Source: Thelonectria olida (Eukaryota > Ascomycota > Sordariomycetes > Hypocreales > Nectriaceae). From it: DNA of 64,000 nucleotides. The stretch lies in contig JAGPYM010000019.1 in NCBI GenBank assembly GCA_020736575.1, forward strand, positions 620,001-684,000. Direction: 5' to 3'. Position numbers and translations under genes: made by a program. Shown here one piece after another: positions 26,938 through 63,060 of this stretch (position 1 is the first letter of the stretch; each line of letters begins with the position of its first letter). The notes under the pieces were generated by a model. It made no database searches and was not told the origin of the DNA. It saw only the letters and a program-made list of their open reading frames with translations.

Positions 26938-27399
26938 GGTTTTGAAATATGGTACTGGCTGAATCTAGCAGGATCCTTCACAACTGGCGAAGGACGAGAT
27001 CGTCGTAGAGGGCGGAGGATGCAGACACAAAGATCTAGTCGAGATGAGAATTTGGATCAAGGGGTAGCAGGAAGAGGACAAACGGTTATTCAACGTTATT
27101 CGCATTGTTGTGGAGAAAGTCAAATACTGTTAGCTTCTGACTCGGTTCCTTGACGTGTTTCACACTCATTAGCCACGGAGAAAGCCAAATACCCAAGAGT
27201 AGCAAGACGTCGACTGAGGCACCTGGTAGTTGAACCGAGCCTGTCCAACAGACCGATCTAGATTTGCGACTAGATCCGGCCATCTGATCACTTCGGCATG
27301 GAGGCCCCCGTTTTACTACCTGTGGCTTGGGACTATTGTCTTGATTGGCTTCGCTTTGAATACCTAACTACGACAGCGTGGGACGGAGTGGCAGTAGTT
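26938..27399. promoter_or_regulatory. PKS upstream region
   Basis: About 460 bp between the PKS start and the AT-rich block. It contains a near-duplicate motif pair (GGAGAAAGTCAAATAC at 27111 and GGAGAAAGCCAAATAC at 27177). I found no CGGCCGC-N5-CCGC element here, unlike the promoters of the genes to the right. Confidence 0.45.
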
Positions 27400-28712: not shown

Positions 28713-29616
28713 CTACAACTTCTTAGCGAGAGCAGCATCGGTTGTGTGCGGCTTGCCTAAGCCGGTCCTGCCAAGAGGCCCATAGTACCTTCCTGATATA
28801 ACATTATTAGAGGTCGAAGCCCACAGCTGGTTAAGGGTTCCGGTTGGAACATCCACGCCAATGAAAGCTGTAGTGATTTTCCAAGCGATACGCATAATCC
28901 AACTGTTATCACTCATAGCGTTAGCCAGGTTAGTTGTAACCAGGCCGGGCTGAATGGAAGAGGTTGTGAGCTGGGGGTGGCGCCGGGCTAGCTCCTTGGC
29001 GTAGAGGGCGTTGGCGAGCTTGCTCTGCCCATAGCGAGTGATGGTGCTCAGCTTCTCAGCCTCGTTCTTGAGTGTGTCGAACAAGATGCCCTCATTGGGG
29101 GTATACTGGTGGGCTGCCGAGGCGTGGATGGTAACGCGCACGTCGGAGCTTGGTTCTTCGGCCGTGTTAAGCATCGTAGGCAGTAGAAGCTTGGCGAGAA
29201 AGGCATGCCCCATGTGATTGGTGCCAAATTGGACCTCGTAGCCATTATCGGTGGTCCCAGCTGGCACCGACATGATGCCAGCATTAAGAAGGAGAATGTC
29301 TAGGCGATCGGACTGTTGGTTGGGTAAAGGTCTTGGCCGACTCGCGGATCGAGAGGAACGATCCTAGATCCATCTGAAGGAACTTGATCGGTGGTGCCTT
29401 GGAAACCTGTGCCTTAATATCGGCGATGGCTTCGTCAGCCTTGGTCTTGCTACGAGCTCCGAGCCAGATCTCCTTAGGGCCATGTTTGGAGAACTCAAGA
29501 ATGGACTACTTGCCAAGACCACTGTTGCCACCAGTAACAAGAAAAACTTTTTCCTTGAGGGACGGAATGTCCTCGTCGGGGTTGAAATTGATGTTCTTGC
29601 TCCCCGAAGATCCCAT
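28713..29616 (-). pseudogene. Short-chain dehydrogenase/reductase, broken by a TAG and a frameshift
   Basis: From the ATG at 29616 the frame reads MGSSGSKNINFNPDEDIPSL and VFLVTGGNSGLGK (cofactor motif). It meets TAG at 29506-29508 exactly where the family has Gln (CAG to TAG), and continues in frame as SILEFSKHGPKEIWLGARSK and IKFLQMDLGSFLSIRESAKT. Near 29312-29320 a one-base shift is needed to resume at SDRLDILLLNAGIMS. The rest is intact to 28713, with YGQSKLANALYAKELARRHP (catalytic Tyr and Lys) and GRYYGPLGRTGLGKPHT. SDRs of this retinol-dehydrogenase-like group reduce or oxidise small carbonyl/alcohol substrates. It is a close relative of the intact SDR at 44891-45838. Divergent from regulator 1 across a shared 802-bp region. 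Confidence 0.85.
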
Positions 29617-30418
29617 TGTGATGACCGAGTAGTGGCTGTGGCGAGTGATTTTCACTCCAAGTTTGAGGATGTGGACTGGTATCCAAGATTGCTGTCGAAT
29701 CAACCGCCACTCTACTAAGAAGCGTGCAAGATGGTATCTCTTGTTCAGAAACTTGCGATACTGTTGAATTGGAAATGCTGATGCGATAGACTGTGGGAAC
29801 AAAGGGCAAGAATAAATAGGTATTGTGTCATGAGAAGCCCGAGTTTGGGTGTGGCCTCCTGGCCATCACGATTGTTATATACTCATATCACAAAGTGGCA
29901 GATATTTCCCTGCAACTGGCCATCTTTGTCCTTGTGTAAACCTTCTTCTGTTCGTGGGCGGAGTTGACGCAGGACGTTTCTCTAACTCCGAGAATGTTCA
30001 TGCAGCTGCCATTGTGGGACGCGCCACCAAGTCCAAGATTGCCGGGATCAGTGCGGCCGCATTCCCCGCACCGGTCCCTCCATCAGTCTCAGCCTCTCAC
30101 GTCAGCTGGTCAGCACGCTGTGCGAACGGCTCAGAAGTCAAGAAGGGATTCCCCGGGAGACTTGCTCGCGAAGCCGGGAAGCTACTCCATCTCCCTCCGC
30201 CTCAGTTTCTTGCTCTCTCCCGCAGTCAACTGGGTATGCATATGGGGGCAGCAGGCAACCAGAAATCTCCATAGCCAGACTATTACTTCTCGCTCCTCTT
30301 TCTCCTATACCTTGGGTTGCTTAGGGTTACAAGGCCCCGCAACGTGTCGTGGCGTACGGCTGATCTCCACCTCGCCTTGTCATGACACGCAGCAAAACAG
30401 AACCGGCCTCTACCTACC
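29617..30418. promoter_or_regulatory. Divergent promoter between the broken SDR and regulator 1
   Basis: 802 bp between the ATG of the minus-strand SDR (29616) and the ATG of the plus-strand Zn2Cys6 regulator (30419). It holds one copy of the shared element, listed separately at 30053-30070. No gene is recognised inside it. Confidence 0.6.
30053..30070 (+). promoter_or_regulatory. Shared element CGGCCGC-N5-CCGC, copy 1
   Basis: Sequence GCGGCCGC-ATTCC-CCGCA, 349 bp upstream of the regulator 1 ATG. It contains CGG/CCG triplets typical of sites bound by Zn2Cys6 proteins. Confidence 0.65.
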
Positions 30419-32530
30419 ATGGCCTCCCGCAGCGACCAGGCCTGCAATGCCTGCAAAAAGCAGAAGCGACGCTGCGATAAGGGCCTCCCCGAATGTAGCC
30501 TGTGCCGGCGAACCAAGCGCTTGTGTGAGTATGGCATCGCCGCTGACCCTCAGCCGACCGCCAGCGACTGGGGCTTCCTGCAGGCACGTCTCACTGAGCT
30601 TGAAAACCGCCTGGCCGACTCTCCGAGAGCTGTCGAGCAGTCCTTGTTTCCGAACCCGGCCTCAGCCCCAGTCTCGGGTCCGGCCTTGACGTCCAGCAAC
30701 ACCTTATGCGAGTCCCTCGATACCCACAGCCCCGGGCCGAGCAGCGTGACCTCATCGTTCCGATTTGTCGGCGCCACACCTGCCTTCTCCATGGTCGAGG
30801 ATCCGGGCCCGAACTACGGAGCCCAGTTTCCAGCATCTATGTTCCTCGATGTTGACTGCTATGTCTGGTCCCGTGTCCGACTGCCTGCTCCCCGCGGCCC
30901 CATTCCTACGGTGCGTTTCCTCGGTCATCACCAACTGTCCTCGTCTTTGCTTCGTCCAAGGCGTGATCCCATACCCGTTCGCTCTTACCATGTCTGCTAA
31001 TCGAGACTCTAATCCTTCGCAGCCCGTTCTGTCGCTTCTCAGCCAAGGCAATGTCGTTCTCGACGTGTCGCGGGACTACTTTGCCACGGTCCACACGTGG
31101 TTCCCCATGGTATCTAAGAAGAGGATGGACATGGGCCTTCCGGTGCAAAATGCAGGCCCCGACCTCGCCATGCTGTTCCTCGGAATGAAGCTTGTCACCG
31201 CACCCGGTACCGACGCCACCGACTGCGCCTTGTACACAACAGCCAAGAGCTTCCTTGCCCACCTTGAGAGCAACGGTGCTGTCTCGCTGCTCTGTCTTCA
31301 GGCCATGGTTCTAATAGCCTTGTACGAGTACGGCCATGCGATCTACCCGGCAGCTTGGATGAGCATCGGATCATGTGCACGCTATTCTGATGTCTTGGGG
31401 CTTACCCCCGGTGATCATCCTATATTGGGTCAAGCCGTAAGTGCCCTGGCTGCTGGGTAGGGCCCGGTATCTGGTCGCCTATGCGGTTTCTTCGTACTAG
31501 TAAGAAAGCTAGGGAATGAAACAGATGTTCACTAACTATCTTCCCTTGATGTAGACAACCTGGACGGAAGCCGAAGAGAGGAGGAGAGTGTGGTGGAGCA
31601 TCTCTATCCTGGACAAGCTTGTGTCGATGGGTAGCAGAAGGCGTTGCCTGGTGCCGGATCCCCAACCCGAGGGCAGGTTGCCTGTTGACGATGAAGCATG
31701 GGTAAGTTCTCCTGGCGCTTCATTTCTGGAGACGAAGGTGTGATGGTCTCATCCCCACCATCGCCTCCAACGACAGGGTGCATCGCAGCAACTGACAAGG
31801 CGGCCAGGACTGCGGTGAAGTCGGCAAGGCCCTCGGTCACTCGACTTGTACGCCCTACCAGGTGGAGCAATCAGGCTTTGCACGGCTGTGCCAGGCCTCA
31901 ATCTATCTCGGCCGTGCCATAGGCTACGCACGCGGCAACCCAACGATGAGCACATCTCGCATTGCAGAAATCATGTCCCTCGCACACGAGCTCACTGGCT
32001 TCGGCGCGATCGTGGACAACGAAAGCACCGCTCGCGGTCTCGAGAATCGTTTCCCCCTCCTCGCCCCTCGGTCCATCACCCGCTCAGCGCTATTTGTCGC
32101 TCTTGAGCGCTTTACTTGCCCGGAAAAGATCGGTGCAGAGCCTGGGTATGTCGGCAGCCAGGGCGCAAAGGCACAGATGGAGCTCGATCTTCAAAGACAG
32201 TCAATGCAGGTCATAGAGCAGGCGAGTGAGCAGTTGCACACTCTAAGTATGGACATGTTGGCCATGCTCCGGGCTGAAGGGGATGTGGCTCAGCCGTATT
32301 CACTGGGCCACGTGAGCCCCTTCATCATGGACTCCATCTACGCAGGTGCCGCGACGTTCCACTGGCTTCTTGGGGAGAGCGGGAAGGACGTGTACCGCAC
32401 GGCTGCCGCTGATTTGGACATGTTTCTAGACACTCTGAGCTCAAGGTGGCGGCTCGGTAGCATGTACCGGGAAATGCTGAGCATGCACGACGTCTCAGCG
32501 AGGGTAGAGGCCAGCACGGTGTTGCGATAG
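30419..32530 (+). CDS. Zn2Cys6 transcription factor (regulator 1), four exons
   Basis: Exons inferred at 30419-30910, 31023-31436, 31555-31701 and 31862-32530 (introns 112, 118 and 160 nt), giving about 573 aa. The N-terminus has the binuclear zinc cluster C9-x2-C-x6-C-x6-C-x2-C-x6-C36 in CNACKKQKRRCDKGLPEC, followed by a basic linker and a Leu-containing segment (LQARLTELENRLAD). The middle region carries fungal regulatory-domain blocks, including LLCLQAMVLIALYEYGHAIY and the joined TTWTEAEERRRVWWSISILD. Such proteins are nuclear, pathway-specific activators that bind CGG-type sites. The last intron is uncertain: a shorter version ending near 31828 would add 11 residues. The promoter contains the shared CGGCCGC-N5-CCGC element, so self-regulation is possible. 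Its position at the head of a gene group with the same element makes it a candidate pathway regulator. Confidence 0.88.
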
Positions 32531-33277
32531 AATCGCCGGTCGGGCGGTCATTGGTGGGGCTTGACGACTTGGGAGGCCAGTGGCGTGTGGCCTGGAGTTG
32601 AGGGAGTGTGTGCGGATCATTTGGTGCTGTGATTGCGGTCATTATTTCACTAAGTAGTAGCTAAGTGGTATCGTGTATATCCGACGACAGCGAAGTCTCA
32701 ATACTTAATTCCGTTGTTTGATATCTCCGTGTGATGATTAGTAGCTTTTCCGCGTGGCAGTCGGCCTGGCTTGATAACATTTGGCCGCCGCCGAAATTGG
32801 TCAGGGCATTTCGGGCACGTTCTAACTTGGCCGAAGCGCTGAAACTTGGGCTCCCTAAGAAGGCTGTCATCATCAATGCGGCGCCACAAATGTTGTGCGG
32901 AGTGCGGCCGCGCAACCCGCATCCCACCGCCAGCGGGTCGCGGCCGAGTGGGTCCCGCCCGGCCCCGCTCTGTTGCGGCCGCCTCAATGCAAGTTATCCA
33001 GGAAGGCAAGTAAGTCAGTTTAACGTCTACGGTGCGGCTGCGCTATGATGTCGCTCACGACAAGGAAGGTCGCCATCCTCCTGAATGTCGACAAAGATGG
33101 CCTATAAAGTCAATAGCCGTCCCAATAACCTCAGAACACACCCAGCAACACACTCGCACCTCTCGCACATCTGATCACGGCCGAGGCCACGCTTTCCAAC
33201 TATCCCTTCCCATTGACCTCAAAACTGAGGTTCCCAAATCCCCCTCCGCCCGCCCCCCTCTGCCAAAACTGCCCATC
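32531..33277. promoter_or_regulatory. Promoter region of SDR 2
   Basis: 747 bp between regulator 1 and SDR 2. The segment 32900-32990 is unusually GC-rich and carries the shared element (listed separately) plus a second bare GCGGCCGC octamer at 32975-32982 that lacks the CCGC half. No other gene is seen. Confidence 0.55.
32904..32921 (+). promoter_or_regulatory. Shared element CGGCCGC-N5-CCGC, copy 2
   Basis: Sequence GCGGCCGC-GCAAC-CCGCA, 357 bp upstream of the SDR 2 ATG. A TGCGG half-site lies immediately upstream at a 3-bp spacing. Confidence 0.65.
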
Positions 33278-34516
33278 ATGAGTGTCCGCCGAAGCACCAT
33301 TATCCCCAACAAGCCGACCCTGACAGAGAAGAACCTTCCTGACCAAGCAGGCAAGGTAAGGCATAACTTGCTCCACACACCACTGCGACTCGCTGAATGT
33401 ACTAAAACATGCATCAGGTCTTTCTTATCACCGGCGCCTCGGGTGGCCTAGGCAAGGAGCTCGCTTCAATTCTGTACCAGAAGAACGGCAAGATCTACAT
33501 GGCCGCCCGCTCCCGATCCAAGACCAACGAGTTGATAAGGGATATCAAGGCCACCCATCCAAACTCAACCGGTAGGATGATCTTCCTGCCTCTGGTCCTC
33601 GATGACCTAACCACCATCAAGGCTTCGGCCAACGAATTCTTGGCACAGGAAGACCGCCTCGACGTTCTCTACAATAACGCCGGCGTTATGGTTCCTCCTC
33701 AGGGGTCCAAGACTGTGCAAGGCTATGAGCTACAGATTGGCGTGAACAACCTCGCGCCGTTCCTCTTCACCCACCTTATCCATCCCGTCCTTGCCGCTAC
33801 GGCTCGGATTGCCCCTAAGAACTCTGTGCGTGTGATCTGGGTTTCCTCTAGCGCCGCTGATGGCGCGCCGACTCCTGCTATCGACTTCACGAATATGGAC
33901 TATCATAATGAAGAGGGTATCTGGCCTAAGTACTCTCGCAGCAAGGCCGGAAACGTCTTGCACGCTGTCGAGTATGCTCGCAGGACGGCCGGCCAAGGCA
34001 TCATCAGCATTGTTTGTCATCCCGTGTCATCTCTATGCAGTTCCTCTTCTCTCGAGTCGGGCGCTGAAAACTGACACTTGTCCACAGGCCCTCAACCCCG
34101 GCAACTTTGTGACCAACCTGCAGCAGAACATGCCGAGGTTTCAGCTTGCCATGTTTGTAAGTTGACGCTGACTATAAGGGTCGAAGCATTAAACTAAAGT
34201 TCGCTGTTCAGAAACTCATTTCTCACGAACCCAAAAACGGCGCCTATACCCAGCTCTTTGCGAGCCATTCTACCACCATCACAGAGAAGAATAACGGCGG
34301 CTGGGGTAAGTCTTTCGTGTCCCAACCCAAGGCGCCCGCCAGCTTATTCTAGGCGCTGCGTGAGCAAATAAAAAGATTCACCTAGCTAACGACACCACTT
34401 GTTCAACAGTTTCGCCTTTCGGAAAGGTTGAGCCGGCTCGCAAGGACCTCCTTGACCCTGCCCTTGGCAAGCAGTACTGGGAGTGGACCGAGGAGCAGGT
34501 CAACCAATACAAGTGA
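33278..34516 (+). CDS. Short-chain dehydrogenase/reductase (SDR 2), five exons
   Basis: Exons 33278-33355, 33418-34011, 34088-34156, 34212-34305 and 34410-34516 join in frame to 942 nt (313 aa). All introns have GT-AG borders (62, 76, 55 and 104 nt). The Rossmann cofactor motif is TGASGGLG at 31-38, NNAG at 112-115, the catalytic Ser lies in VSSSAAD, and Tyr198/Lys202 in YSRSK. The C-terminal region includes ALNPGNFVTNLQ and ends with YWEWTEEQVNQYK. It is an intact member of the retinol-dehydrogenase/WW-domain-oxidoreductase-like SDRs, an NAD(P)H-dependent carbonyl or alcohol redox enzyme. The substrate is unknown. It is transcribed in the same direction as regulator 1 and has the shared element in its promoter. 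Confidence 0.9.
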
Positions 34517-36014
34517 CTTCGCCACGGCTTTTTGAGAAAGAATGGCGGATGTCGTGAGCCCATATTGCAGCTATAATTATATTGAGTTCCGGTCTTTTAG
34601 GGTTTCTTCGCAACTAATACCTCTATACGGCCAAATGTATTTGGGCAATGGGTCGGGTCGCTTTGAATGGGCCGTTAATGAGTTGTTTGGACATTATTTG
34701 TGTTGGACGGGTCACAGGGCTTAAGCATACACAATATCAAATTTGTTTTCGCCCTCCTGCCACAAAATTCATCATTTTGGTCTCTAGTAGTAGTCATGGT
34801 CGGCGGTTATCGTATTTGCGGTAGCGAACGCCCGGACAAGTAACAATTGACAATATCCCCGAGCAGTATTCACATACCTGCTCGCGTTGAGTGGCAACTC
34901 GGAATTTTCCCTAGTTCAGAAATAGAAGCAAATCATTGAAGTTATGGATTTGCCCCTCAAACAAGCTCCTGTCGGCATACACCACCATTCCCCTTCCATC
35001 CACTTCCTTCACCTAGTCGACATATTTTGTCCAGGCAAAATCGGGATAGAGGGCCTTGCAGTCCAGATAGCCCAGATACATGGCATATTCTGGAAGATTA
35101 TCCCTCGTAGCCACACTCATATGGGATACTGTGCGAGCACAAGGTTAGTGATGCTAAGGAATGTCTGGTAGGCTGGTAGTAAGATACGTTGAGTGCGTTG
35201 TTTGGGGGAAGATGTGGTTACGCCCTTCGGAAATCTTGCGCTTGAACGAAGCAAGGAGGAGCTTGTCCTAGACCGCCGCCAAGCCGGGCCAATCCTTCGA
35301 AGACTGCCAACGGGAGCCAATGACGAGTGGTCTCGGCGACTTTTCTTCCTCGACGGGACCGTGAATTCGTCCGCATGCCGTAAAGCGTCCCGAGAGTCAA
35401 GACCACTGTATAGGCCGACCACTGCTGGGACAAAAGCGCCAATCAACCTTTGTGATGCTGATGTCTCTTTCCGCGCCCCAAATCACGATGGTCGATCTTA
35501 TCCTTGTGGCTCGATGGGGATGGATATTAGTACCATTCGCCCAACAAGCGCCCGACTCTCACGGTACTTAGGCATGGCTAGCTGTATACTATAAAAGGAA
35601 AGATGCCCCTTCAACGGCCAGATGTAGGAGTATAAGGGCCCCTGACAAATTGTGATACACCCCTCCCAGCGGATGGGTTTACGTCGTACTAGGGAGATTT
35701 CAACAACTAGGTGTTTCGTCCACCTAATCAGTTCGTCCAATAGGAATGTTCCATTTTTTGCGCAACGGTTCAAGTGCGAGAAGAGTTACCTAGCTGGGTA
35801 TTGACTAGGAGCATAAAACCGCAGATATTTAATGGGTGAAATGCACAAGGCAAGACAAGAACGACACAGGAATTTTATCGTAGGCTTCCAGCGGTCAAAG
35901 CAGCGAAAGTGGCTATTGGTTATTAAAGTTTAAACTCGTGGCCGCCGTTATTGACGGTGAGGGATTTCACTGTGCCCAACAGCGGCGAAGATGATTCCGT
36001 TGCTTTCTCTTCAT

Positions 36015-36032
36015 GCGGCCGCGTGAGCCGCA
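36015..36032 (+). promoter_or_regulatory. Shared element CGGCCGC-N5-CCGC, copy 3
   Basis: Sequence GCGGCCGC-GTGAG-CCGCA, about 840 bp upstream of the ADH start. Confidence 0.6.
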
Positions 36033-36702
36033 TGCATCCTTCCGCAGGAGCCGACGGGACGATGGCCGCTCAGTGACAAATATCATAATCTATCTGCAGT
36101 TTATAGGTGTCCGCGGCGGGTTATTCTGGAAATGCTCAGATTCCGCATGGGATATCCCGCTGGCCGTCACCGCTTACCCTTATTATTATCGTAACTCAAA
36201 ATCAAGTATGTCACCGGAAGGGTGACATTTCCGCCGCGAACACCCTGCCTCTCAATACCGGGTTTTCTTGGCATTGTCGGCGTGCGGGCGGGGTGTGGAA
36301 CTTGGTATGTTATCGTAGTGCAGTATGTATATTGTGATGCTCGCAGGTGGCCAAACTTGGTAGTTGGAGGAATCATTGTTCGTAAGGAGACTTCTTGATT
36401 GAGGGAAGGTCCGATTCTGGAAAGTTCTGCGAAAGCGGGAAGTGAAGATTCGTTTCTTGATCCACCCTCTTTCTCTTGCTAAGTGAGTAAAAATGTATAC
36501 TAGATTATCTGGAAAATTATAACCAGATACGGGCATTGGTGGCATTGTAAGCCTAGCTTTACCCCTGGCGGAGCCAAGATTCAGGGTTAAGTTGAGAAAA
36601 TGGGACAATGTAACGACAATCACTCTATTGTTATACGCGTCCTTGCCGAACCTGCCGGATTCCGGTTGCTCTGGACGGCCAGCTCAGCGTTGAATCGAAG
36701 GG

Positions 36703-36720
36703 CCGGCCGCATCGTCCGCA
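36703..36720 (+). promoter_or_regulatory. Shared element CGGCCGC-N5-CCGC, copy 4
   Basis: Sequence CCGGCCGC-ATCGT-CCGCA, about 135 bp upstream of the ADH start and just upstream of the TATA-like ACTATATAG. Confidence 0.65.
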
Positions 36721-36855
36721 TGTACGCACGGACGTACTATATAGTGAAAGCATTAGAGGAAGTATAAATAAGGCCACCGCGATTCGAGCGCTTGATGTAG
36801 AAAGAGCATCGAGTAGTGCGAGACTTCTTTCTTCAATCTCACATTTTTCGGCATT

Positions 36856-38082
36856 ATGTTAAAGAACATGGCTCTAGCTGCGCTCAACACCACCCTCAAC
36901 GCCACCATGCGTGGTGTCATGTTTGATGGGAAGCCGTTTTCGATATCGGTCCAAGATCTTCCGATGCCACACATCGAGTTGCCCACAGACGCGATCGTGA
37001 AGATCACAACTTCAGGCATCTGTGGATCCGATCTCCACGCTTACCGCGGATACTCGGCGACCACGACTCCATACAACATTGGCCACGAGGCTATCGGGTA
37101 TATCACCGAGATCGGAAGCAACATCACCAGCCTCCAGGTCGGCGAATATGTCATCGTGCCAGACACATCTGCCCATGCACACATGCCGCTGGCACCAGAG
37201 CCGTTAACCTACTACGGCAATGGGCCGGCGCTCTCGCCTGGGCTTGGCGGCCTTCAATGTGGGTAGATTGGTAGTGGTGCCCTGATGAGGTGTCATGAGC
37301 TAACAGCCATGTCCGCAGCCGAGTATGTCCGCGTGCCATTCGCGGAAGGAAATCTGATTCCCATCCCTCTGACCAAAACGACGACGAACGCGAGCCTCGA
37401 GCAGAGTTACGTGACTGTCTCGGATATCTGGAGCACGGCGTGGACCGGCCTGGACTTCTCCGGCTTCGAACCGGGCGACACGGTCGCCGTCTTCGGTGCG
37501 GGCCCCGTTGGCCTGCTGACCGCGTACTCGGCCATCCTGCGCGGTGCCTCGCGCGTCTACTCGGTCGACCACGTCCCTATGCGGCTGGAGCGCGCCGCCT
37601 CGATCGGCGCCGTGGCTATCAACTTTGTCGAGTCAGACCCGGTGGCCCAAATCCTCGCGCTCGAGCCCGGCGGCGTCGCGCGCTCAGTTGACTGCGTCGG
37701 CCTCGAGGCTCTGAACAGCGACCTCCAAGTCGAGACCAATATCATCCTAAATCAGATGGTCAATGTGACCCGGCTTGGCGGCGGCATCGGTCAGCTCGGC
37801 ATTTACGGCATCTAGCCAGGCGCGCCGGCCATCGCCAACGACAGCTCCCTGATCCAGGACCCGACCTTCCCCATGTCCCTATTCTTCGGCAAGGGGCTGC
37901 ATATGCAGTCTGGCCTCGTCGACGCGCGGGCCGTCGCGCCCAAGTTGATCGAACTTATCGCCTCAGGCAAGGCGGACCCGAGCTTTATACACTCAGCCAC
38001 CATAAACATCGAGCAAGCGCCAGAGTATTATCGGCTGTTCAACCTCTCACAAGAAGTGAAAGTATTTATCTCTTTTCCCTGA
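36856..38082 (+). pseudogene. Zinc-type alcohol/formaldehyde dehydrogenase with one in-frame TAG
   Basis: Exons 36856-37258 and 37319-38082 (60-nt intron, GTGGGT/CAG) join through GLGGLQ-SEYVRVPF. The medium-chain dehydrogenase features are TSGICGSDLHAYRGY (catalytic-zinc Cys), IGHEAIGYITEIG (His-Glu), the Rossmann motif FGAGPVGLLTAYSAILRG, and a C-terminal FFGKGLHMQSGLVDARA region. The structural-zinc Cys cluster is absent, as in glutathione-independent formaldehyde-dehydrogenase-like fungal ADHs. Full length would be 388 codons. At 37813-37815 a TAG interrupts between YGI and PGAPAIANDSSL, after which 88 codons of family-like sequence continue in frame. An intron removing the TAG would need to be about 27 nt, so a nonsense mutation, a read-through codon or a sequence error are the options. 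Everything else is intact. The substrate is unknown. Confidence 0.75.
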
Positions 38083-39387
38083 AAGAAAGGATAAAGAATA
38101 CATGCGGTGGAGTCCTTCGCGAGATCTGCCACTCATTTCGCTCGTGAAGGAGGGACAACTGTTCGAGGGGTAGCTTTGTAGTCTGATCAGGGCCATGGAG
38201 TGAAACAACCGAGTCCTGGTTAGGCGTTTGTTGCGCGGGCTGCTATTAGTATTCTTTCCCCCTCCCCTTTAAATTAAACCTTAGATTCTTAGTTTGCATT
38301 CGTATGTCCATTGTGTTCACACGTCATGCTCAAATCCACTTTATCAGATACAAGATCAATTCTCATTTCCCACGCCGATATTGAACGGCTTATTAGTCTC
38401 TGCTTCTACAAGCACAAAGGTTCATATTGGTCTCGGCGCCTCTCCAATGTATATTCGTATCGATTGCCAAGCCGGTGCACCTCATGTACACGTCATGAGT
38501 TTGGCCGTAGGTCACCCGCCAGGGCCTGATCATTGCTAACCACCCAATCAAGGTTGAAGCCATTCCCTCCTCGTTCTCATCTCTGTACCTAATCCCACGA
38601 TCCCGCGCCCTGGCAACTCGGCGACTACTTGACTTTGTGGCAAGTTTCCCAGACTTTCACCTCCACGAATATACGTGGAGATGCGTCGAAACTTCTCACC
38701 GGGGGGTCCAGCTAAAATCGCCGAGGGCCCGAAAATTCAGGGAGCAGAATTTGTTTGCAGTGCTCAGAAGAGAGGCGTCGGCTTGGCCACGCAGTAGAGT
38801 CAGCCCAGTTCGAAGAGACCTTCTCCCCGGCCCTCCAATCGGATTTCAGGACCACAACGATTTCCCTCATGAAGTGCCGGTGCTAGGATCTCAAACATCT
38901 TGGATGATCTTGATGATCCACACATTGCCCACTGATCATCATCTACTGGGGCGATCATGCAGTCTCACAGAGGGAGACAACGGCGCGACAGCACTCCGCG
39001 AGGCCCCAAGCTCAATGCGGATGCGGATCTTGGTGGGGCTTTTCATCGGAGCATTTATTTAGTTACCAGCTCTAGCCTCACTAAATGACTACTCGAAACA
39101 TCATACGTCCATGCCTTCCTTCTGAACCCTCCTGATGTTACTTGCGGGCACTACCAAGGCTGTTCGTTGTGCCTACAGGAGCCCTGCCTAGGCACCTACC
39201 TGTCAGTTACCCCCACAGTCTCAATTACATCATCGTCTTCAACAGAATTCAGCTCCAAGATTGAAGAAGCCATTATCTAGCAATTGTAGCTTGAATTTCG
39301 TAATTTGCAGCTAGACTCGTTGAGAAATCATTGAGCGTTGCCGGTTGTACATTCTACAAGTAATGCTGTGAGGGTGCGGTAGATCAG
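38083..39387. other. Intergenic between convergent ADH and NmrA-like genes
   Basis: 1.3 kb between two genes that converge. Only short frames without motifs; no shared element and no RNA gene seen. Confidence 0.45.
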
Positions 39388-40434
39388 TTACTTCTTCAAG
39401 TACGTCTCGATAACATTGCGCCAGGTGAGGGGCTCGATATCCGGGAACTCCTTGTTGAGCGAGTTGAGAGAGATGTCCAGATCCATATGTCCCTCGGCAA
39501 GCCACTTTCCAAACACGGACAGCTGTTGGGTCAAGAGCCCGATAGCCTGGTCGTTGCCCTCGTACATCTTGAGCGCCGTCTGTGTCAGGGTGATCTCCCC
39601 TTTCTCCAGCTTCTCGAGCGAGTTATGGACAACGGTGAACTTGCTGCCCGTAAGCTCTTCGGCCAGCTTCACAGCCTCTAGCATGGTCTGTCGGCTTCCG
39701 TGGATGGTATAGATGGGCTCCCACTTCTCCAGGTCCAGGAGGGCCACGACGAAACGACCAACGTCACGGGTATGTGTGGCGACGAAGTGTGCCGTCCCAT
39801 CTCCGGGAATAGCGGCAAACCTGTTGTCTAGGTCGATGAAGACGTTGGGAGCATAAGGCATGGCGGTCGGGATATGGGGGACGCTGAGGTAGTCCAGGAA
39901 GAAGGAGTTGCAGACTGCGGTGAATTCCAAGGATGAGTCTTCCAAGGCTCTGATTGCCTTCAGCTTTCCCCTATAAGTAGGCATAGGCGGGGGACTCCTG
40001 TGGCATGCAACTTTAGCACTTGACCAGGTTTCAGAAAGATACGGCGCGGAGTGACCAACACATTAGGGGGCCACCAGGGGGGGCAAGGGGGGGCCAACTC
40101 CAAGTACTTACTCTCGGTTCCACCTGGACCCGTACTCGCTGGGAATAAAGCGCTTCGTGAACGAAGCCCGCTTGGCGGCTTCGATCAGATTGGCCTGGTT
40201 CTGGCCCGCCTCATCAGTGGAGAGGGAGAGACCAGAAATGACCGTGTTGACCTGATACTTGTCTAGCGTCGCAGCTAGACCATCGATATCATTGTAATCA
40301 ACTTGCACCGTCTTCGACTCTGCAGACGGGTTGCGGCTGAGAATGATGTACTCATGCTTGTTTCCCACGGCAACGGTGTCTGCAATAACCTTGCCCACGC
40401 CGGAGGAAGCTCCAGCAACAGCGACACAGACCAT
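39388..40434 (-). CDS. NmrA-like/isoflavone-reductase-like NAD(P)-binding protein, two exons
   Basis: Exons 40434-40112 and 39997-39388 are joined across a 114-nt GTAAGT/CAG intron to 310 aa. The start MVCVAVAGASSGVGKVIADT gives the Rossmann motif GASSGVG at residues 8-14. The next blocks are LSRNPSAESKTVQVDYNDID, NTVISGLSLS, NLIEAAKRA and TKRFIPSEYGSRW, the recognised NmrA-like/atypical-SDR pattern, and across the splice NRESPPPMPTYRGKLKAIRA. The C-terminal half includes HFVATHTRDVGRFVVALLDL. This family contains NAD(P)H-dependent reductases of aromatic or phenylpropanoid-type substrates as well as redox sensors; which applies here is not decidable from sequence. It is transcribed towards the ADH and has one shared element 462 bp upstream. 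Confidence 0.88.
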
Positions 40435-41953
40435 TTTGGTTGATGTTGGTTTTGGTTTAAGGATAAGGCATCCACGGGAGCGGACAGCGAGACGATGGCT
40501 TAAGTTATGAGAAGAAACTATGTGTAGTGATATAGAAGGAAGCGGTTGTGAGTTATATGGGATGCCATGTGTAGTTATAAAGAACGAGAGGGGGGAAATG
40601 GACGGCCATCGAAGTCAGCTCTGTTTCTCTCAGTCCCATTGATACTAAGTCCGCAGTGGAGTACTTGGTCTATGCTTTCTTCGCCCATTATATGCCGATG
40701 CTCACTCGGGCTTGATGTGTGCCGTGGAGAAGGGGCATAAACGGTTCTCAAGTGCAAAAGGAGGCAAAGCCCGTACCGTTCGCTTCCTCCGATCAGTGTC
40801 TACTGGTCCGCCAACTCGGGAATTGGAGGGCTCACTATGCGAGGTCCGACCGCGGACCATATGGATAGAAAGCTAAAACCTACCCCCTTTGAAGCGCGGC
40901 CGCACCGCCCGCGTCGTGAGTTGGTGCGGGATTGACTACGTTAACTCCGTTTCATCGTCGTTGTAACTTTCGGCCACCTGCTCCGGACTTATCGGGAAAT
41001 ATTCACTCATTCTCCGGCCCATTGCAGGAGGATAATATTGTCTGATCGAGGAGTTGTGAATCTGGAGCCCGGTCCAGCATCGCCAGTACACCCCCGTTGA
41101 CGTCGCCAAGCTAGAGACACTCCATCACAAAAGTCAAAATGGTCGCTGCTAACCTCACTCTCCCCGCCTCCCGCTCCATGGCACATATGGCGCCAGGAAA
41201 CATGACTTAAACAACTGGCAGCTGAGTACGCCCATGCGCCCCTCCCCATGCCTCTAGACAAGACCAACCCAACCCTAGAGCAGAGCTGTATCACCCTTAG
41301 TTGAATGGCTTTAATTAGTATTTTATTAGTATTTCATTCCACAGCTAGACCGTTGATGTGACTGAGGCGCGGGGACTTGAGGTTTGAGAGTGGGTGTAGG
41401 AAAGTTAATCATTTGGAGGAGTCTAGCTGAGATGGATAGAAGGCCGTTCCGTGCACTTTTAGAGCCTCCCTGTCCTGTATGAGTAATCAAAGAGGTTTAG
41501 TTGAGAAGCAAAAAGTAGATTGCATCTTCACGTTGCATTTTGGGCTAGGGTTGCCGGGCGGGACACACAACGGAGACCAATGTGTGTTTCATCAGGAAAC
41601 TCTGTACGTTACTACACTAGTTTGTTTGAGCTTACATAGTACACTCAAGTCGAGCCAGTCACCGGTGAATAGCATAGGCCTAAATGGAATGAAATTGTTG
41701 CGCGAGTATTCTTTCTATGTTGTGCTCTCCCGTCTTTCTTGTCTCTTTTAGCTGCAAGCTGCCAAAGGGAGATAATTATAACCGTGAGCTTACATGACCA
41801 TTTTGCTACAACCAAGACAAAGGAAACTAGCAACGTGTGCATATTACCATGGCCACTGCATCCCAAAATGAGCGCACTGGCTATAACTCTGTGCTCGGTT
41901 CATTTTCGAGTCAAGCCTGTTCAACGCCTACTATTACCACTTACATTACCTCC
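40435..41953. other. Upstream region of the NmrA-like gene; no other gene recognised
   Basis: 1.5 kb between two minus-strand genes. Carries the shared element at 40896-40913. The rest (41000-41950) has short frames only and includes the 3' flank of the MFS gene. Confidence 0.45.
40896..40913 (+). promoter_or_regulatory. Shared element CGGCCGC-N5-CCGC, copy 5
   Basis: Sequence GCGGCCGC-ACCGC-CCGCG, 462 bp upstream of the NmrA-like ATG (gene on the minus strand). Confidence 0.6.
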
Positions 41954-43858
41954 CTAGGCTGCACCACCACTCTCCTTCGGTGCTTCGCGACTAAGCCTGT
42001 CCCATCGCTGCAAGAGGCTTACCACGAAAGCAAGGCCGACGCCTCCAATACCAACCGCGAAGGCCCCCTTGATGCCCGACATGTAAGCGCTGAGGATACC
42101 ATTAAGCTGGTCGGCTGGGAAGGTTGCGCGGACCTCCGTGGCGCCAGTGGCAAGAAGCTGGAGTGGGTTCACACCGGGGGCGTCGCTGGCCAGCACATCT
42201 AACATGATATTGACGAATGCGGACTGGGCGGCCGAGACAAAGAAGGCCCCCCCAATGGTCTGGAAGACTAGCGGTGCATGCTCGTAAGTGGTGGACATTC
42301 AACGGGTTTCGGTTCTGTAAAGGAGACTTACATAGGATGATGGCCGTGACTGAAGACAGTGTTTCCGGCGTGGATGTTGCCTGCCCGATGATAATGGGGA
42401 TTTGCAGCGAGAGGCCCCAGCCGAGTCCTCCGAGTACCTGATAGCCTATCCATTTGCTTGAGCTTGACCCGATGTCCAAGGTGTAAAGCAAGCCCGCAGC
42501 AACTGTTGCGATGGCTGCTCCAACGGGGATTATCGGCGCCGCAATACCCGTCATGGAAATGAAGGCGCCGGAGGAGATCGTGGCAATTGTGATAGTGAGG
42601 ATCAGCGGTAGGTTGCGGATTCCTGAGGCGGTAGGACTGGTGCCGTCAATGCTCTGGAAGTAGATGGGCAGATAATAGATAGCCAGAAAATAGGGGCCAG
42701 CCAAAAGGAGGGCCAAGGCTGAGCTGGCCCAGATATGACGGTCCCGTATCAGCCCAGGGGCGAGCATGGCCCGATCGCCCTGGGAGTACTCCCACACGGC
42801 GAAGGCAATGGCGATAAGTACAAAACCAACAAGCAGACCGATCACGACACCAGAGTTCCAAGGGTGAGTCTGGCCGCCATATTGTAGAGCCAGAATGTAG
42901 GCAATGATGGCGCCCATGACCAGGGCCACGCCGACAAAGTCCATCTGTAGTAGCTTTTCGGCCAAGGAGGCGACAGCGGGCTTAGCCTGCGGAGGGGTTC
43001 GGAAGAAGAACATGATAATAAGCGCAGAGAGGCCACCGATCGGGAGGTTGATGTAGAAGCACCACCGCCAGCTGACCTTGTCTGCAAAGGCACCGCCGAC
43101 CAACGGCCCCACGACCGAGGCAATGCCGTACGATGCACCGATTATTCCTGTAAATATGGGCCGGCGGGATTGCGGCACGGAGAACGCAACCAGTGTGTAT
43201 GAACCAGAACCGATCCCCGCTGCGCCAACACCAGCGATAGCACGGCCCACGATTAAGGCCGTTGAACTTGGTGCCACGCCGCAGATCAAGGAGCCAAGTT
43301 CGAAGATAAGTATGGACAACAAATAGGAAGGTTTCAGTGGGAAGAACTTGTAGGCTTTCCCCCCTGTATGCGCGCACATGGTTAGAATGGACGTCGTTTG
43401 GAAACCAGATATGGAGAGGCCCGTCATTGTAGGCAGACTTACATGCTGATTGGAAGCCGCCAACACACATGAAGAAGGCGGAACCGTACCAAGATACATC
43501 GTCCAGGCTGTGGAACTCATCCGTGATTTTGGGGATGGCTGTGGCTATGATGGTCTAGCTGTGCTTAGCGAACGGTGTGTATGCTATGGACATAGTAGAA
43601 CCTTACCATGTCCAGAGAGACAAGGAAGATACTGAGGACCAAAGCAAGGACAACAAAGACCAGACGAGGCCCAGTCGGATATGCCTCCTCGAGCAATAAT
43701 GCGGCGCCGTCCTGCTTAGCTTCCACCTCCTTCTTCGCGCTGAGAAAGAATGGGTCTCGGGGGCTGTCCGAGTCATTCTCTGGGGTTAGAGTAGGAGCCT
43801 GCGAGTTGGGTAGCGGACCCAACATCTCCTGAGATGTTCCTTCGGGCGAGAGAGCCAT
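41954..43858 (-). CDS. MFS drug/toxin exporter, 14-TM DHA2 type, four exons
   Basis: Exons 43858-43607, 43554-43443, 43363-42332 and 42267-41954 join to 1710 nt (569 aa). The introns are 52, 79 and 64 nt with GT-AG borders that restore [33 protein letters not shown] and [16 protein letters not shown]. An acidic cytosolic N-terminus of about 60 residues precedes the helices. DHA2 marks include [13 protein letters not shown] (motif D1), [37 protein letters not shown] (motif C region) and [10 protein letters not shown]. Such proteins are plasma-membrane proton antiporters, and those in biosynthetic gene clusters usually export the product or give self-resistance (TOXA-like). The role here is inferred from neighbours and from the shared element 464 bp upstream. 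No lesions were seen. Confidence 0.92.
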
Positions 43859-44890
43859 TGTTGCTGGGTCCGAGGATGAGGTAGGAGTCCGACTGCGACG
43901 GAGACGTTGGAAAAAGTCGCTTCTTTTGAGATGGTGTTTGAAGGAGTTCGAAGTTCATGGAAACTATGATGGGGATAAGAACCAAATATATCTTTTCAAG
44001 TGGCTATCTTAGAGCAAAACCAACGTTGTGGCCGACGCTCCCTCTGGACATTGGAAAAGCAAAGTCCGCCAGAGCAGAGCCACAAACACCGTTGTTCCGA
44101 CATGGTAGTCGGCGGGGGGTCAAACTCCGCTGCGCTAGACGAAAAAAAACTATACATATTTAATCAGTTGCTAATTTAATTATTGATTCTGGGAGTCTTA
44201 TGAAAGACGAATGTTAAACGTGATGCTGACGATGTGGTGGAGACGCGGGATGTCGGAGTTATTCCAAGCCCGCGCCGCGCATCTAATACTCTAGGCTTAC
44301 CGCCAACATCAGCGGCCGGGTCGGCCGCGCCAGCCGCCTGTGGCCAAACACGGCCGGCTCAGGGTCGCAGTACAACGCGGATCTCGTCAAGGAAGCCGCC
44401 TCAGTCAAGAGGCGGTGCGTAAAGTACTCTGCCTCTCGAACGCGTAGAAAATGGCAGGGGAGGAGACTAAAGATACATATGGCGGAATAACCTGCCTCAG
44501 TTGATCACTAAGTCACCGTGGCGAACGCGTTGATAGCGGACATAGCGCCGCAGCCCGACATCAACAGCTCGTCCTTGCAGCAGGCGTATTGTTGCAGTGG
44601 AACCAGAGTCAAAGCAAGTCACTGTGGTTGTATTCCGATTCCCGGCGAGTCATGGTGTGTCAGACCGCCAACGTCGGAATCACCGGCTGTTTTTCTGTAT
44701 TCTTTAGTTCAAACATCAGGGGGTTGCAACTGGAACAAGTCGACAGAGCTCTCGTTGAAGCCTGCGGAGGCGTGCTCGATACAACAAGCCTAGGGAAGTC
44801 TAGTATATATACATCAGAACCGGGAGGAATCATTCTCGTTTGCACAGTGCTCCTGCCCGGAAGACTGTGTGTCCAGGTTCCAACCGCCAA
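43859..44890. other. MFS upstream region; possible unrecognised small protein at 44.5-44.9 kb
   Basis: 1.0 kb. It holds the shared element at 44322-44338 and, on the plus strand at 44589-44900, a 103-codon frame (GITGCFSVFFSSNIRGLQLE, YTSEPGGIILVC) that reads like a fragment of a small protein but has no signal peptide or splice partner that I can define. It overlaps the SDR 3 stop region. Confidence 0.35.
44322..44338 (+). promoter_or_regulatory. Shared element CGGCCGC-N5-CCGC, copy 6
   Basis: Sequence CGGCCGC-GCCAG-CCGCC, 464 bp upstream of the MFS ATG (gene on the minus strand). The least perfect copy: T instead of G before the core and C at the last position. Confidence 0.5.
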
Positions 44891-45838
44891 TCACGACTGA
44901 CCCGTGGCCAAGAATGCGTCGAGCTCCTTCTGAGTCCAGTCCCACAAGTCTTCTGCAAGCATCTGGCCCTTGGTGTGAGGACTTCCTTTACCAGTCTCTC
45001 CGATGCGAGAGTAATACTCTCCGCTCTTGACATCCTCGACTGTGCACGCCCACAGCTGCGCCTTGACTCCCTCCTCAACCGAGACCCCCATGATGGGGGA
45101 CAAGACAGACAGAATCACACGGTAGGTCAAGTTGTTTTTACCCATCACCTCTGTCAAACCTGTTCTCACCATTCCTGGATTTACAGATGCTACCCTAATA
45201 TCGGGGTACCTGTAGGCCAGCTCCTTGGCGTATAAGATATTGGCTAGCTTGCTCTGGCCATACCTTTCGACTGCTGAGATGGAGCTGGCGTCGGTCCTGA
45301 GCGTGTCAAATATAATCCCCGCCAGCGGCGCCCGAGCATGTGAGCCTGATGTCAGACTCACGATGCGGACTTCCCCCGGCCGCGTCTGCAGGGCCGTTTG
45401 CTGCATGATCGGCAAAAGTAGCCTGATAAGGAGAGCGTGGCCAAGGAAGTTTGTTCCGAATTGTAGTTCGTACCCGTCCTTGGTGAGACCCTCTGGATGG
45501 GCCATGATACCTGCGTTGTTCAACAATATGTCGAGCCGAGACGATGATTTGAGAAATTGACATGCCGCGCGCTGGACTGACGCCAGAGAGCCAAGGTCTA
45601 GCTCCAAGATACTGATGCGGACACTCGGAACAGACTTCGCGACTTCATCAACTGTTTTCTGCGCTTTGGAAACATTACGTGCGGCGAGCCAGAGGTGGCC
45701 AGGATCATGCTTTGCGAGCTCCAAAATCGACTGCTTGCCAAGGCCTGCGGTACCGCCTGTGACCAGAATTACTTTATTAGTAAGTGGTGGGATGTCTCTT
45801 GCCGGGGTGAATGAGATTGGTGCCGAGCATGTTGCCAT
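44891..45838 (-). CDS. Short-chain dehydrogenase/reductase (SDR 3), single exon
   Basis: I chose the ATG at 45838 (MATCSAPISFTPARDIPPLT) because it matches the family N-terminus; an upstream in-frame ATG at 45946 would add 36 residues without family support. The product is 315 aa and uninterrupted. Cofactor motif TGGTAGLG at 27-34, NNAG at 107-110, catalytic Tyr193 and Lys197 in YGQSKLANILYAKELA, C-terminal GEYYSRIGETGKGSPHT. It shares these blocks and the DIP-x-L opening with the broken SDR at 28713-29616, so the two are probably paralogues or duplicates within the same region. Retinol-dehydrogenase-like SDR; substrate unknown. Divergent from regulator 2 across a region with the best copy of the shared element. 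Confidence 0.92.
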   Translation of the reverse strand: MATCSAPISFTPARDIPPLTNKVILVTGGTAGLGKQSILELAKHDPGHLWLAARNVSKAQKTVDEVAKSVPSVRISILELDLGSLASVQRAACQFLKSSSRLDILLNNAGIMAHPEGLTKDGYELQFGTNFLGHALLIRLLLPIMQQTALQTRPGEVRIVSLTSGSHARAPLAGIIFDTLRTDASSISAVERYGQSKLANILYAKELAYRYPDIRVASVNPGMVRTGLTEVMGKNNLTYRVILSVLSPIMGVSVEEGVKAQLWACTVEDVKSGEYYSRIGETGKGSPHTKGQMLAEDLWDWTQKELDAFLATGQS

Positions 45839-46505
45839 ATTGACTGGAGAGGAGAGGGGAGGAGAGAAGAACTTCTCTGGGAACGCCGAGGGTTGCAGGC
45901 AGACCTCGCCCAAGCTTGAGGCTTGCGGCCGATGATGGGTTGGCACCTGTAGTCATTAAATATTAATGCCTACCAGTATGGGTAGCGCCTAATACCCTCC
46001 ACTCCATGCTGGTTGTTCCAACTGCCCGGAAGAGTACAAAAATGTCCGCATCCTGCGATGCGGAACATGCGGCCGCAGTATCCGCACCTGGGGGCATCCG
46101 ACACCGAGATTTGCGGCCGAAAGGCCCTAGCAAGCGCGGCCGCAGGCAGGCTTAAACGGGTCTCTAGAGCCAGCCGGTCTCGATGGTTTCCCGTAGCCGG
46201 GCACAGTACATCACAAAAGGGCACGCTACTGTACCTGAAGCTGAAAGAGTCCACGTTAACAGGAACTGCTCTCGCACGAGGCGGAGGCACGTCCTTCGCA
46301 CATGATGGCAAAAGCGTAAAGCCTCCAGCAAATTAGATGAGTCTACGCATCAGGGGTACAGTGTCCGTCGGTGTGTACCGACCTCTTGACTGACACGAAA
46401 TGATCCTAAAGTCACGTCTCGCCCGGCCTAGCATACAGAATTCATCCCTTATCCGCCTGTTCATCCAAAAATCCGCGACAACTCTCGCAACCCCAACAAT
46501 CATCG
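45839..46505. promoter_or_regulatory. Divergent promoter between SDR 3 and regulator 2
   Basis: 667 bp between two ATGs on opposite strands. Contains a symmetric form of the shared element (46059-46086) and a second bare GCGGCCGC at 46136-46143. Both genes are likely co-controlled from here (inference). Confidence 0.65.
46059..46086. promoter_or_regulatory. Shared element, copy 7, fully symmetric form
   Basis: TGCGG-N5-GCGGCCGC-N5-CCGCA: the half-site occurs on both sides of the octamer at equal spacing, making a 28-bp composite palindrome. It lies 221 bp upstream of SDR 3 and 420 bp upstream of regulator 2. Confidence 0.7.
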
Positions 46506-48133
46506 TTGCAGACGGCCAACTCTGCTATGTCTGACTCCGTTGGAGCCTCACCCAGAGCAGACCTAGCGCCTGCGCGGCCTGCTCTTCAGCTTCGGAGTTG
46601 TTCTCGCTGCCGTCGGCGCAAGGTGCGATGCGACCGCCGGAGCCCTTGTTTGAACTGTACGAGAAACCTGACAGAGTGCGTCTTCCCCGCCTCTGGAAGA
46701 GCGACGCGTTGTGACGACACCGGCGCCCCGACACCGAAAAGAAAGCAGGCTCATCTGCTATCACGCCTTCGAAACCTAGAGTCTGTCGTGGATGTCTTGA
46801 CAGCCCAGCCCCAGGGGCAGACAGAAAGCGGCTTCCCCGAGTCAGATGGCGCTGGGCGTGTCAGTCAAGGAATTGGCAGCGACAGCTGTGGTACCACGCT
46901 GGATGACGAAACTGCGGGGCTTGGGAAAGAATTCGGCCGTCTCGTCATCGATGAGAATGGGAGTGTCTATATTGGGAATCAGTTTTGGGCCGCTGTTCGC
47001 GATGAGGTATATAGCCCCTGGCCCCGGCCGAGTTCTCTTCTCCGGCCAGCATGGCATGGCCTTGTTATACTCACATTGGGATATACAGATCAACCAAATC
47101 AAGCAAGTCTTCGACGACGACGACAGGGATGGAGATACTTATTCGGCTGAATCTTCGTTCCTCAACGGATCATCCCCCCGCCACCTCGCTGGGCAGGGAC
47201 GGGAGGAGTCCCTGCTCTTCCTGCTCTGGCAGAGTCGGGCACAATATGTGCACCTGAAGGATCTTCGCGCGTTTCCCTCCCAAGTGCCTATCATCTGGCA
47301 AACTTACATTGAGCGCGTTGACCGCTACAGCAAGATATTGCACGTCCCGACATTCGCGAAGAGAATCCAAGACTTCCAAGATGACTTCAGCAGGATGACT
47401 CCAGGTATCAAGGCATTGATGTTCGCCATCACCATGTCCGCTGTCAACTCGATGAGTAATGAAGACGTGAGCGAACAGAAATTTCCCCTGTGACATGGAG
47501 GCTGATGAGGACAAGGTCAAGATGAAGTTACATGCAGAAAAATCCGATCTTGTCGCGCGGTATCGCACCGGTACAGAAATCGCACTCGCCCGCGCCGACT
47601 TCATCAACAGCACGGAGCTCGACGTAATCCAGGCATTTTCCATCTTCCTTGACACCGTTCAAACCATGGAGTCTCCGAAATACGTCTGGTCGATGACTGG
47701 TCTGCTCGCTCGGGTTGCCGTGTCAGCCGGGCTGCACCGCGATGGGTCGAATTTCCCAGGCATGAGCCCCTTCAACATCGAGATGCGACGGCGACTGTGG
47801 TGGAACATCTTGTTCATTGACGTACGCTCCGGAGTCGACCAGATTTCTGAGGCCTCTCTCCACGATGAGATGTTCGACACAAAGCTTCCGACGAACGTCA
47901 ACGATAGCGACCTGGATCCCTGTATGAAGGTGCCACCTGTTGCCAAGAATGAGATAACTGACACCACGCCCATTCTTGTCCGTTCGGAGCTTTGGAGTCT
48001 GGCCCAGCGTACCAGCTCTTCATTGTCTGCGTTGAAATCGAAGCGTGGGGTAGATCCAGTGGAGGCGCTGAAGCTGCCCTATTGGAACAAGTTTAGAGCA
48101 AAGAATATATTGCTGTACGGAAAAACGTATTAG
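46506..48133 (+). CDS. Zn2Cys6 transcription factor (regulator 2), probably truncated or frameshifted
   Basis: Exon 1 is 46506-47006; an 82-nt GTATAT/CAG intron joins RDE to INQIKQVFDDD; exon 2 starts at 47089. The zinc cluster is C32-x2-C-x6-C-x5-C-x2-C-x6-C58 in CSRCRRRKVRCDRRSPCLNC. The regulatory-domain blocks IERVDRYSKILHVPTFAKRI, LLARVAVSAGLHRDGSNFPG and RRRLWWNILFID are typical. Between SMSNED (47466) and DEDKVKMKLHA the frame changes. This needs either a 34-nt GTGAGC/GAG intron at 47467-47500, shorter than normal, or a one-base change in the CCCC run at about 47486-47489. The protein ends at 48133 after GKTY, giving about 460 aa, while this class often reaches 600-700. The end lies inside the antisense NLR remnant, so the 3' part was probably lost. 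Function therefore is uncertain. Confidence 0.75.
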
Positions 48134-57690: not shown

Positions 57691-58021
57691 AGCGGAGTGT
57701 TTACAGGAGAATTATAGGGACGCGTCGCGTGTGGGTGCGTGGAAGGGGAGTCTGCGGGGAAAGGGGGGTGGGGACTCTATGTGCTGCTTTCGACGCCCAA
57801 GACGGCTAGCCCGTGGGCCCATGTAGGGAGCCTCATTGGCCTCCGGACGGCCGAGCGAGACGCTGCCCTTAACCAGGGCGCTAATACAGGCCAATTATTA
57901 CCCTTGCATACGGTTGCAGCTGACATTTCACATCGATGCTCCCGATGGTTAAAAACCCGCATGGCACACGCACGACTCAACCATCAATCCGATGTACCGG
58001 CAACTTGCTGCAAATTATACC
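57691..58021. promoter_or_regulatory. Upstream region of the STAND N-terminal-domain gene
   Basis: 331 bp of normal composition between the AT-rich tract and the ATG at 58022. No specific site recognised. Confidence 0.4.
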
Positions 58022-59999: not shown

Positions 60000-60109
60000 A
60001 GACTTTTTTCTTTCTTTCTTTCTAGCTTTAAATATTTAATTTTTAGGCTATTTTATATTATACCTATTTAAGTCCAGCCCCTTATACTTGTAACTTTTTT
60101 TATATTATT

Positions 60110-63030: not shown

Positions 63031-63060
63031 ATTAATTAAACTAATTAGAAAATATTATAA

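Follow-up and report, generated by a model that had tools for sequence, protein, structure and literature searches.

Fusarium belongs to the same fungal family as Thelonectria olida, and its regulator PglR is the nearest known case to the locus described here, a 16-kb part of a 64,000-nucleotide stretch of the T. olida genome (hereafter the window; GenBank assembly GCA_020736575.1, contig JAGPYM010000019.1, our contig C77) in which promoters share the 16–18-letter element CGGCCGC-N5-CCGC. The locus holds three short-chain dehydrogenase (SDR) genes (SDR1–SDR3), a zinc-type alcohol dehydrogenase (ADH) gene, genes for an NmrA-like reductase and an MFS exporter, and the genes of two Zn2Cys6 regulators, TF1 and TF2. 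Gene clusters whose promoters carry a common motif and answer to a single local regulator are well established (PMC10153163). Below, numbers beginning with C denote contigs and those beginning with L denote fetched stretches of the T. olida assembly.

PglR is the pathway-specific regulator of the PGL1 pigment cluster of Fusarium, where CGGN3CCG is over-represented in the cluster promoters, with nine copies in F. graminearum (PMC4872168). Both systems combine a pathway regulator with short CGG/CCG palindromes enriched in cluster promoters, but the element here has CGGCCG without a spacer together with a third half-site at a fixed distance, and the PGL1 cluster includes its backbone polyketide synthase (PKS), which is excluded here. 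In the terrein cluster of Aspergillus terreus, the Zn2Cys6 regulator TerR uses the site TCGGHHWYHCGGH, a CGG-N5-CGG repeat present up to three times per promoter (PMC4360782). That system is likewise cluster-specific with fixed-spacing CGG direct repeats; the TerR-type TCGG-N5-CGG arrangement is not found here, however, where the triplets are six bases apart and the CGG-N6-CGG repeat is fused to a palindrome. The yeast Rds1 site, CGGCCG, has the same zero-spaced inverted core as our element, and no third half-site is stated for Rds1 (PMC4872168). One TF1 homologue, 38% identical, bears in its source the name 'Regulator of drug sensitivity 1', a likeness of name only.

AlcR places alcohol-metabolizing enzymes under one regulator. 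The half-site of its ethanol regulon, TGCGG (PMC12941744), is identical to the TGCGG/CCGCA half-site of the element. The proteins differ, in that the TF1 zinc cluster, compared with solved structures, is far closer to LAC9 (E 8.5e-6) and GAL4 than to AlcR (E 0.12), and an AlcR-type regulator was rejected for this reason. The HAP1 site is CGGN6CGG, a repeat contained in every copy of the element here. The kojT promoter also holds CGGN6CGG, of the KojR type (PMC10890517), and the yeast PDRE is TCCGCGGA (PMC8211738). In the literature listings and passages inspected, none of which came from a search on the spaced pattern itself, CGGCCGC-N5-CCGC is not described, nor is any gene cluster in which a CGG palindrome is joined by a third half-site at a fixed distance. 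Systems of this kind are familiar, and the three-part layout of the site is possibly new.

An exact scan of both strands of the window gave nine matches to CGGCCGC-N5-CCGC, every one within 30.0–46.1 kb, starting at 30054, 32905, 36016, 36704, 40897, 44322 and 46070 on the + strand and at 42219 and 46060 on the − strand. The initial annotation had listed seven places, all of which were recovered, although most coordinates were 1 bp low and the last place, 46059–46086, resolves into two overlapping copies. Its remark that no other copies were seen in the 64 kb holds outside 30.0–46.1 kb, but the copy at 42219, which lies in the MFS coding sequence, had been missed. The sites are as follows, with lone palindromes taken from a palindrome scan.

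30053..30070, + strand: full element, GCGGCCGC-N5-CCGCA, in the common SDR1/TF1 promoter, at −452 of SDR1 (antisense) and −365 of TF1 (sense); exact scan
32904..32921, + strand: full element in the SDR2 promoter, at −373 of the SDR2 ATG; exact scan
32975..32982, no strand: lone GCGGCCGC palindrome in the SDR2 promoter
36015..36032, + strand: full element in the distal ADH promoter, at −840 of the ADH ATG; exact scan
36703..36721, + strand: element with the outer base C for G in the proximal ADH promoter, at −152 of the ADH ATG; exact scan
40896..40914, + strand: element in the NmrA promoter and 5' of an ADH-like remnant at 41139, at −478 of NmrA and −242 of the remnant
42219..42234, − strand: ninth exact match, within the MFS coding sequence (in frame S-A-A-Q-S-A), probably there by chance; exact scan
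44322..44337, + strand: element in the MFS promoter, at −479 of MFS, with more CGGCCG at 44313 and 44351
46059..46086, no strand: symmetric double element, TGCGG-N5-GCGGCCGC-N5-CCGCA, in the common SDR3/TF2 promoter, at −247/−237 of SDR3 and −467/−457 of TF2
46136..46143, no strand: lone GCGGCCGC palindrome in the SDR3/TF2 promoter

Dinucleotide shuffles of the window (n=100) gave a mean of 0.03 matches and a maximum of 1, and Markov simulations of the locus (orders 2–4, 1000 each) gave means of 0.017–0.062 and a maximum of 3. When the spacer was varied from 0 to 30 across the window, N5 gave the nine matches and any other spacer 0–2, bearing out the strict 5-bp spacing that had been described. 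CCGC lies exactly five bases on in 9 of the 22 oriented CGGCCGC sequences of the locus, against an expectation of 0.6% per position (binomial 4.7e-15, or ∼1e-13 once 31 spacers are allowed for). All seven window copies of the GCGGCCGC palindrome lie inside the locus, where 0.36 are expected (the genome has 1,115), as do 19 of the 33 window copies of CGGCCG, the palindrome of the Rds1 type.

Eight of the nine copies are non-coding in an interval that is half coding (P 0.019, with the reservation that two of the eight overlap and so are not quite independent), and these eight are spread over all six promoter regions of recognizable genes, 152–479 bp 5' of start codons, with one additional ADH copy at 840. 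The claim that every gene promoter is marked holds for these six promoter regions of recognizable genes, between which open reading frames (ORFs) without a Pfam domain also lie. Aligned, the eight promoter copies have TGCGGCCGC-R-N4-CCGCA-Y as their commonest form. In a cluster-specific Zn2Cys6 regulon of the CASSIS type, most of the cluster's promoters carry the motif, here six of six, and a Zn2Cys6 regulator gene lies inside the cluster, here both TF1 and TF2 (PF00172 and PF04082 in each). The CGG triplets of the element are of the Zn2Cys6 type. The shared-element observation is confirmed and is stronger than first described. The genes of the locus are listed below.

28713..29617, − strand: SDR1, short-chain dehydrogenase, broken by an in-frame stop and a frame shift
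30419..32530, + strand: TF1, Zn2Cys6 and Fungal_trans regulator, 591 aa, intact
33278..34516, + strand: SDR2, short-chain dehydrogenase (span including introns)
36856..38082, + strand: ADH, zinc-type alcohol dehydrogenase, with an in-frame TAG at 37813
39388..40434, − strand: NmrA-like reductase, two-exon model
41954..43858, − strand: MFS exporter, MFS_1/TRI12-like (span)
44891..45838, − strand: SDR3, short-chain dehydrogenase, 315 aa, intact
46527..48133, + strand: TF2, Zn2Cys6 and Fungal_trans regulator, which, judging by the frames, is missing the C-terminal third present in its orthologues

Genome-wide, the T. olida assembly (52,528,275 bp) contains 83 matches to CGGCCGC-N5-CCGC, 9 in the locus and 74 outside, which corresponds to 1.4 per Mb outside versus about 530 per Mb within (Poisson 6.6e-21). 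The initial annotation would have been refuted by an equal motif density elsewhere in the genome, and this is not what the scan gave. As in a CASSIS-type regulon, the motif is rare elsewhere, with 83 copies in 52.5 Mb and 10 of the extended form. The reversed pattern occurs 139 times in the genome; a 6-base spacer gives 25 genome matches, and an 8-base spacer, which keeps the codon phase of N5, gives 80, neither control having any match in the locus. N5 and N8 are thus each about three times commoner than N6, probably through a codon-phase effect that any count of spaced GC motifs should take into account. Because N5 and N8 share one codon phase, we take the 74 outside copies to be background, largely in coding sequence. 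Those inspected in context were the 9 in the window, 54 of the 74 others and the copy at C89:1697500.

Five of the six genome copies of the longer form GCGGCCGCRNNNNCCGCAY are in the locus, and when one mismatch is allowed, 7 of 46 are in the locus and 2 on C139. The extended form, GCGGCCGC-N5-CCGCA, has ten genome copies, five in the locus, two on C139 and one each on C80, C81 and C89. The 18-mer on C81 is part of an open frame that includes an alanine run, and nothing related was found beside those on C80 (L038) and C89 (L063, 511 bp) in the stretches inspected.

The pair of sites on C139 is the most telling result. On L053 (C139:70000-79000) lies an intact SDR gene; of the window's genes, the broken SDR1 is its closest relative (67–72% identical by pieces). 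At L053 3549–4020 and 5455–5833 this SDR1 paralogue and a broken ADH paralogue lie ∼1.8 kb apart with the element at both. The first site is 382 bp 5' of the SDR1 paralogue and antisense, just as the site at SDR1 is antisense at 452 bp; the second is 377 bp 5' of the 5' remnant of the ADH paralogue and sense, as are both ADH sites of the window. A one-mismatch site follows 87 bp past the first. When the 900-bp promoters of SDR1 and its C139 paralogue were compared, the single BLASTN match at E<=1 was a 21-bp match spanning the element, and the lack of any other match argues that the site is an independent footprint. The closest further paralogue of the C139 SDR, on C102 (89% identical), has GAGGATGCGGCCGC-R-CTCTGGAG, in which the palindrome is whole and the outer half-site has one base changed. 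The candidate regulon proposed from the window is therefore locally enriched, as claimed, but is not confined to the locus, and the element predicts a second controlled locus on C139. No TF1 or TF2 relative was found there among the matches listed (with scores for 87 out of 162 and 74 out of 117 first-look candidates), so that any control on C139 would be exerted in trans.

In every copy of the element a CGG directly abuts a CCG, and a second CCG follows nine bases further; these three triplets allow three readings, CGGCCG, CGG-N9-CCG and CGG-N6-CGG. With the full copies masked, CGGCCG still occurs 11 times in the locus, compared with 1–12 for the other inverted spacings (the 12 being N2), whereas only 3 of 13 CGG-N9-CCG and 14 of 25 CGG-N6-CGG remain, the 14 falling within the 6–19 of other spacings after masking. 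CGG-N6-CGG is thus not enriched in the locus outside full copies, as it would be if a HAP1-type repeat sufficed. Because the palindrome persists outside full copies while the other sub-sites drop, these counts weakly favor CGGCCG as the core, with the third half-site tied to the palindrome; the C102 site fits this arrangement.

We judge that the element is real, looks functional on its sequence and is probably the cluster-wide DNA-binding site predicted for a local Zn2Cys6 activator. A dimer of the regulator would contact the CGGCCG core, with an additional half-site contact on the CCGC five bases off, and binding would turn on the reductase, dehydrogenase and transporter genes jointly. Binding at the regulator genes' own promoters could provide feedback or self-regulation, and the regulator would act in trans on the SDR1-like gene of C139. 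The zinc cluster of TF1 and the helix that follows align with the GAL4 and LAC9 dimers, with a longer linker in TF1, and TF1 is therefore likely to act as a dimer, one that may read CGG-N9-CCG in a GAL4-like manner. The element yields a short test sequence and a short list of candidate regulators.

The initial annotation had put forward both regulators as candidates, and both are indeed in the locus, but they are not equal. The TF1 reading frame is identical to an NCBI protein (100% over 100%) and aligns across the length of its 589–590-aa relatives. Among the species with TF1 relatives are Clonostachys chloroleuca (75% identity) and Fusarium oxysporum (70%). In Fusarium phyllophilum, F. denticulatum and Ilyonectria robusta, a single predicted protein spans TF1 into SDR2, and these fused gene models show that the two genes are adjacent in those relatives. 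In C. chloroleuca, the consecutive tags V2G26_009393–009395 on one contig encode a TF1-like protein (361 aa, 72% over 59% of TF1), an SDR1-like protein and an SDR3-like protein (83%); the SDR1-like protein is 77–80% identical over two pieces, and closer SDR1 relatives, to 85%, exist in other fungi. TF2 has its zinc cluster and Fungal_trans domain but stops about 220 residues short of full-length orthologues, the missing C-terminal third including the acidic tail. It is a 100% match to a T. olida NCBI protein named 'partial', and the TF2-relative entry P0005 of Fusarium oxysporum f. sp. cubense also ends early. Since TF1 is intact and adjoins SDR2 in relatives, with a TF1-like gene adjoining SDR1- and SDR3-like genes, and TF2 is C-terminally truncated, TF1 is the likelier reader of the element, at somewhat better than even odds.

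Several observations weigh against a local activator, and against TF1 in particular. The extended patterns are genome-wide no commoner than their reversed controls (6 versus 4 for GCGGCCGCRNNNNCCGCAY, 46 versus 44 with one mismatch and 10 versus 13 for the extended form); because these totals are at background level, the case rests on the concentration in the locus and on C139, and the exceptional feature of the element is its concentration in one 16-kb stretch, not its genome total. The 21-bp match between the SDR1 and C139 promoters has by itself an E of 0.31. Among other paralogues, the 511-bp stretches at the ADH genes of C97 and C81 are free of CGGCCG, the three SDR genes of 53–54% (two on C86 and one on C1) have no exact upstream copy in the genome match list, and a 601-bp intergenic stretch between a TF1-like gene and an SDR gene on C1 is without CGGCCG. 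The closest C. chloroleuca relative of TF1 (75%) is on a different contig from the SDR genes. In Dactylonectria macrodidyma, relatives of TF2 and SDR3 (84% and 89%) share one contig of 1,538,279 bp, and among the matches listed the best for TF1 reaches 48% identity and lies on a different contig, an arrangement that favors TF2 in that species.

That arrangement, the presence of two zinc-cluster genes within one candidate regulon, the retention by TF2 of both its domains and the position of the only symmetric site of the window in TF2's own promoter (common to SDR3) point to the strongest alternative, in which TF2 or a TF1/TF2 heteromeric pair reads the element, with one regulator on the palindrome and its counterpart on the third half-site. 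The truncation of TF2, and the fact that in relatives the neighbor of SDR2 is TF1 and that of the SDR1- and SDR3-like genes a TF1-like gene, speak against it, and we regard it as unlikely though worth serious attention. A stricter form of the idea, which we offer as a speculation with rather poor odds, is that the element is an obligate three-half-site code, the zero-spaced CGGCCG serving one dimer and the phased third half-site a second protein (TF1 plus TF2). Such a two-key lock would confine the regulon to the cluster and its C139 satellite and keep paralogues under the same control in trans. An obligate layout would illustrate clearly how a pathway regulator is kept off the many CGG triplets elsewhere in a fungal genome, a question of regulator specificity that applies to the entire zinc-cluster family. 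A regulator encoded elsewhere, such as a general CGGCCG binder with TF1 and TF2 merely among its targets, would account for two sites on C139 with no TF1 or TF2 relative among the matches listed, but such a factor should show site groups elsewhere, and the two loci together account for 7 of the 10 extended sites; this we think quite improbable.

Two further explanations do not require a binding site at all. The broken genes and AT-rich flanks of the locus, and the paralogous gene families there, would suit copies left over from a duplicated or mobile sequence, with no selected binding site involved. The nine copies have different flanks and spacers, however, and BLASTN between promoters of different genes gives mostly 13–28-bp matches (for SDR1 versus its paralogue, the element alone), so that a mobile repeat, already disfavored, was rejected on its differing flanks and retains very little probability. 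The codon-phase excess of N5 and N8 genome-wide would fit a chance product of GC-rich promoters or of codon phase. With Markov models of this very locus reaching no more than three matches, eight of nine copies in non-coding sequence and N8 absent from the locus when scanned, such an artefact was rejected on the simulations and spacer controls, and we assign it next to no weight.

A highly reducing PKS (HR-PKS) gene lies nearby, at 20617–26964. The exact scan found no copy of the element in its promoter, as the initial annotation had noted, and CGGCCG was not found between 22.1 and 29.1 kb; the locus thus lacks the backbone synthase under the common motif that a biosynthetic (secondary-metabolite) gene cluster would have. 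We rejected the PKS as a regulon member on this ground, and the element marks a boundary that excludes it, so that element concentration can be used to delimit one gene unit that leaves out the PKS. With three SDRs, a zinc-type ADH, an NmrA-like reductase and an exporter but no backbone synthase under one element, our guess is that the enzyme set converts or detoxifies a carbonyl compound.

Some genes of the locus are damaged. SDR1 is disrupted, ADH is interrupted by an in-frame stop (a further TAG, at 37264, may be intronic), and beside NmrA an ADH-like 5' start (MVAANLTLPA) at 41139–41210 soon fades, a remnant that we likened by eye to that on C139; yet the element copies remain. Judged from its sequence, the cluster seems to be in decay in this strain although its sites are retained. 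Three further TF1-like genes stand beside an SDR gene, at C1:3340133-3342713, C133:1737262-1740490 and C68:112926-115744, and regulators of the TF1 family seem to keep company with SDRs. Beyond the locus, the window is very AT-rich at 56001–58000 and 60001–64000 (26%, 17% and 34% GC in 2-kb bins), and a gene with a PigL_N domain lies between these two stretches, at 57953–59384.

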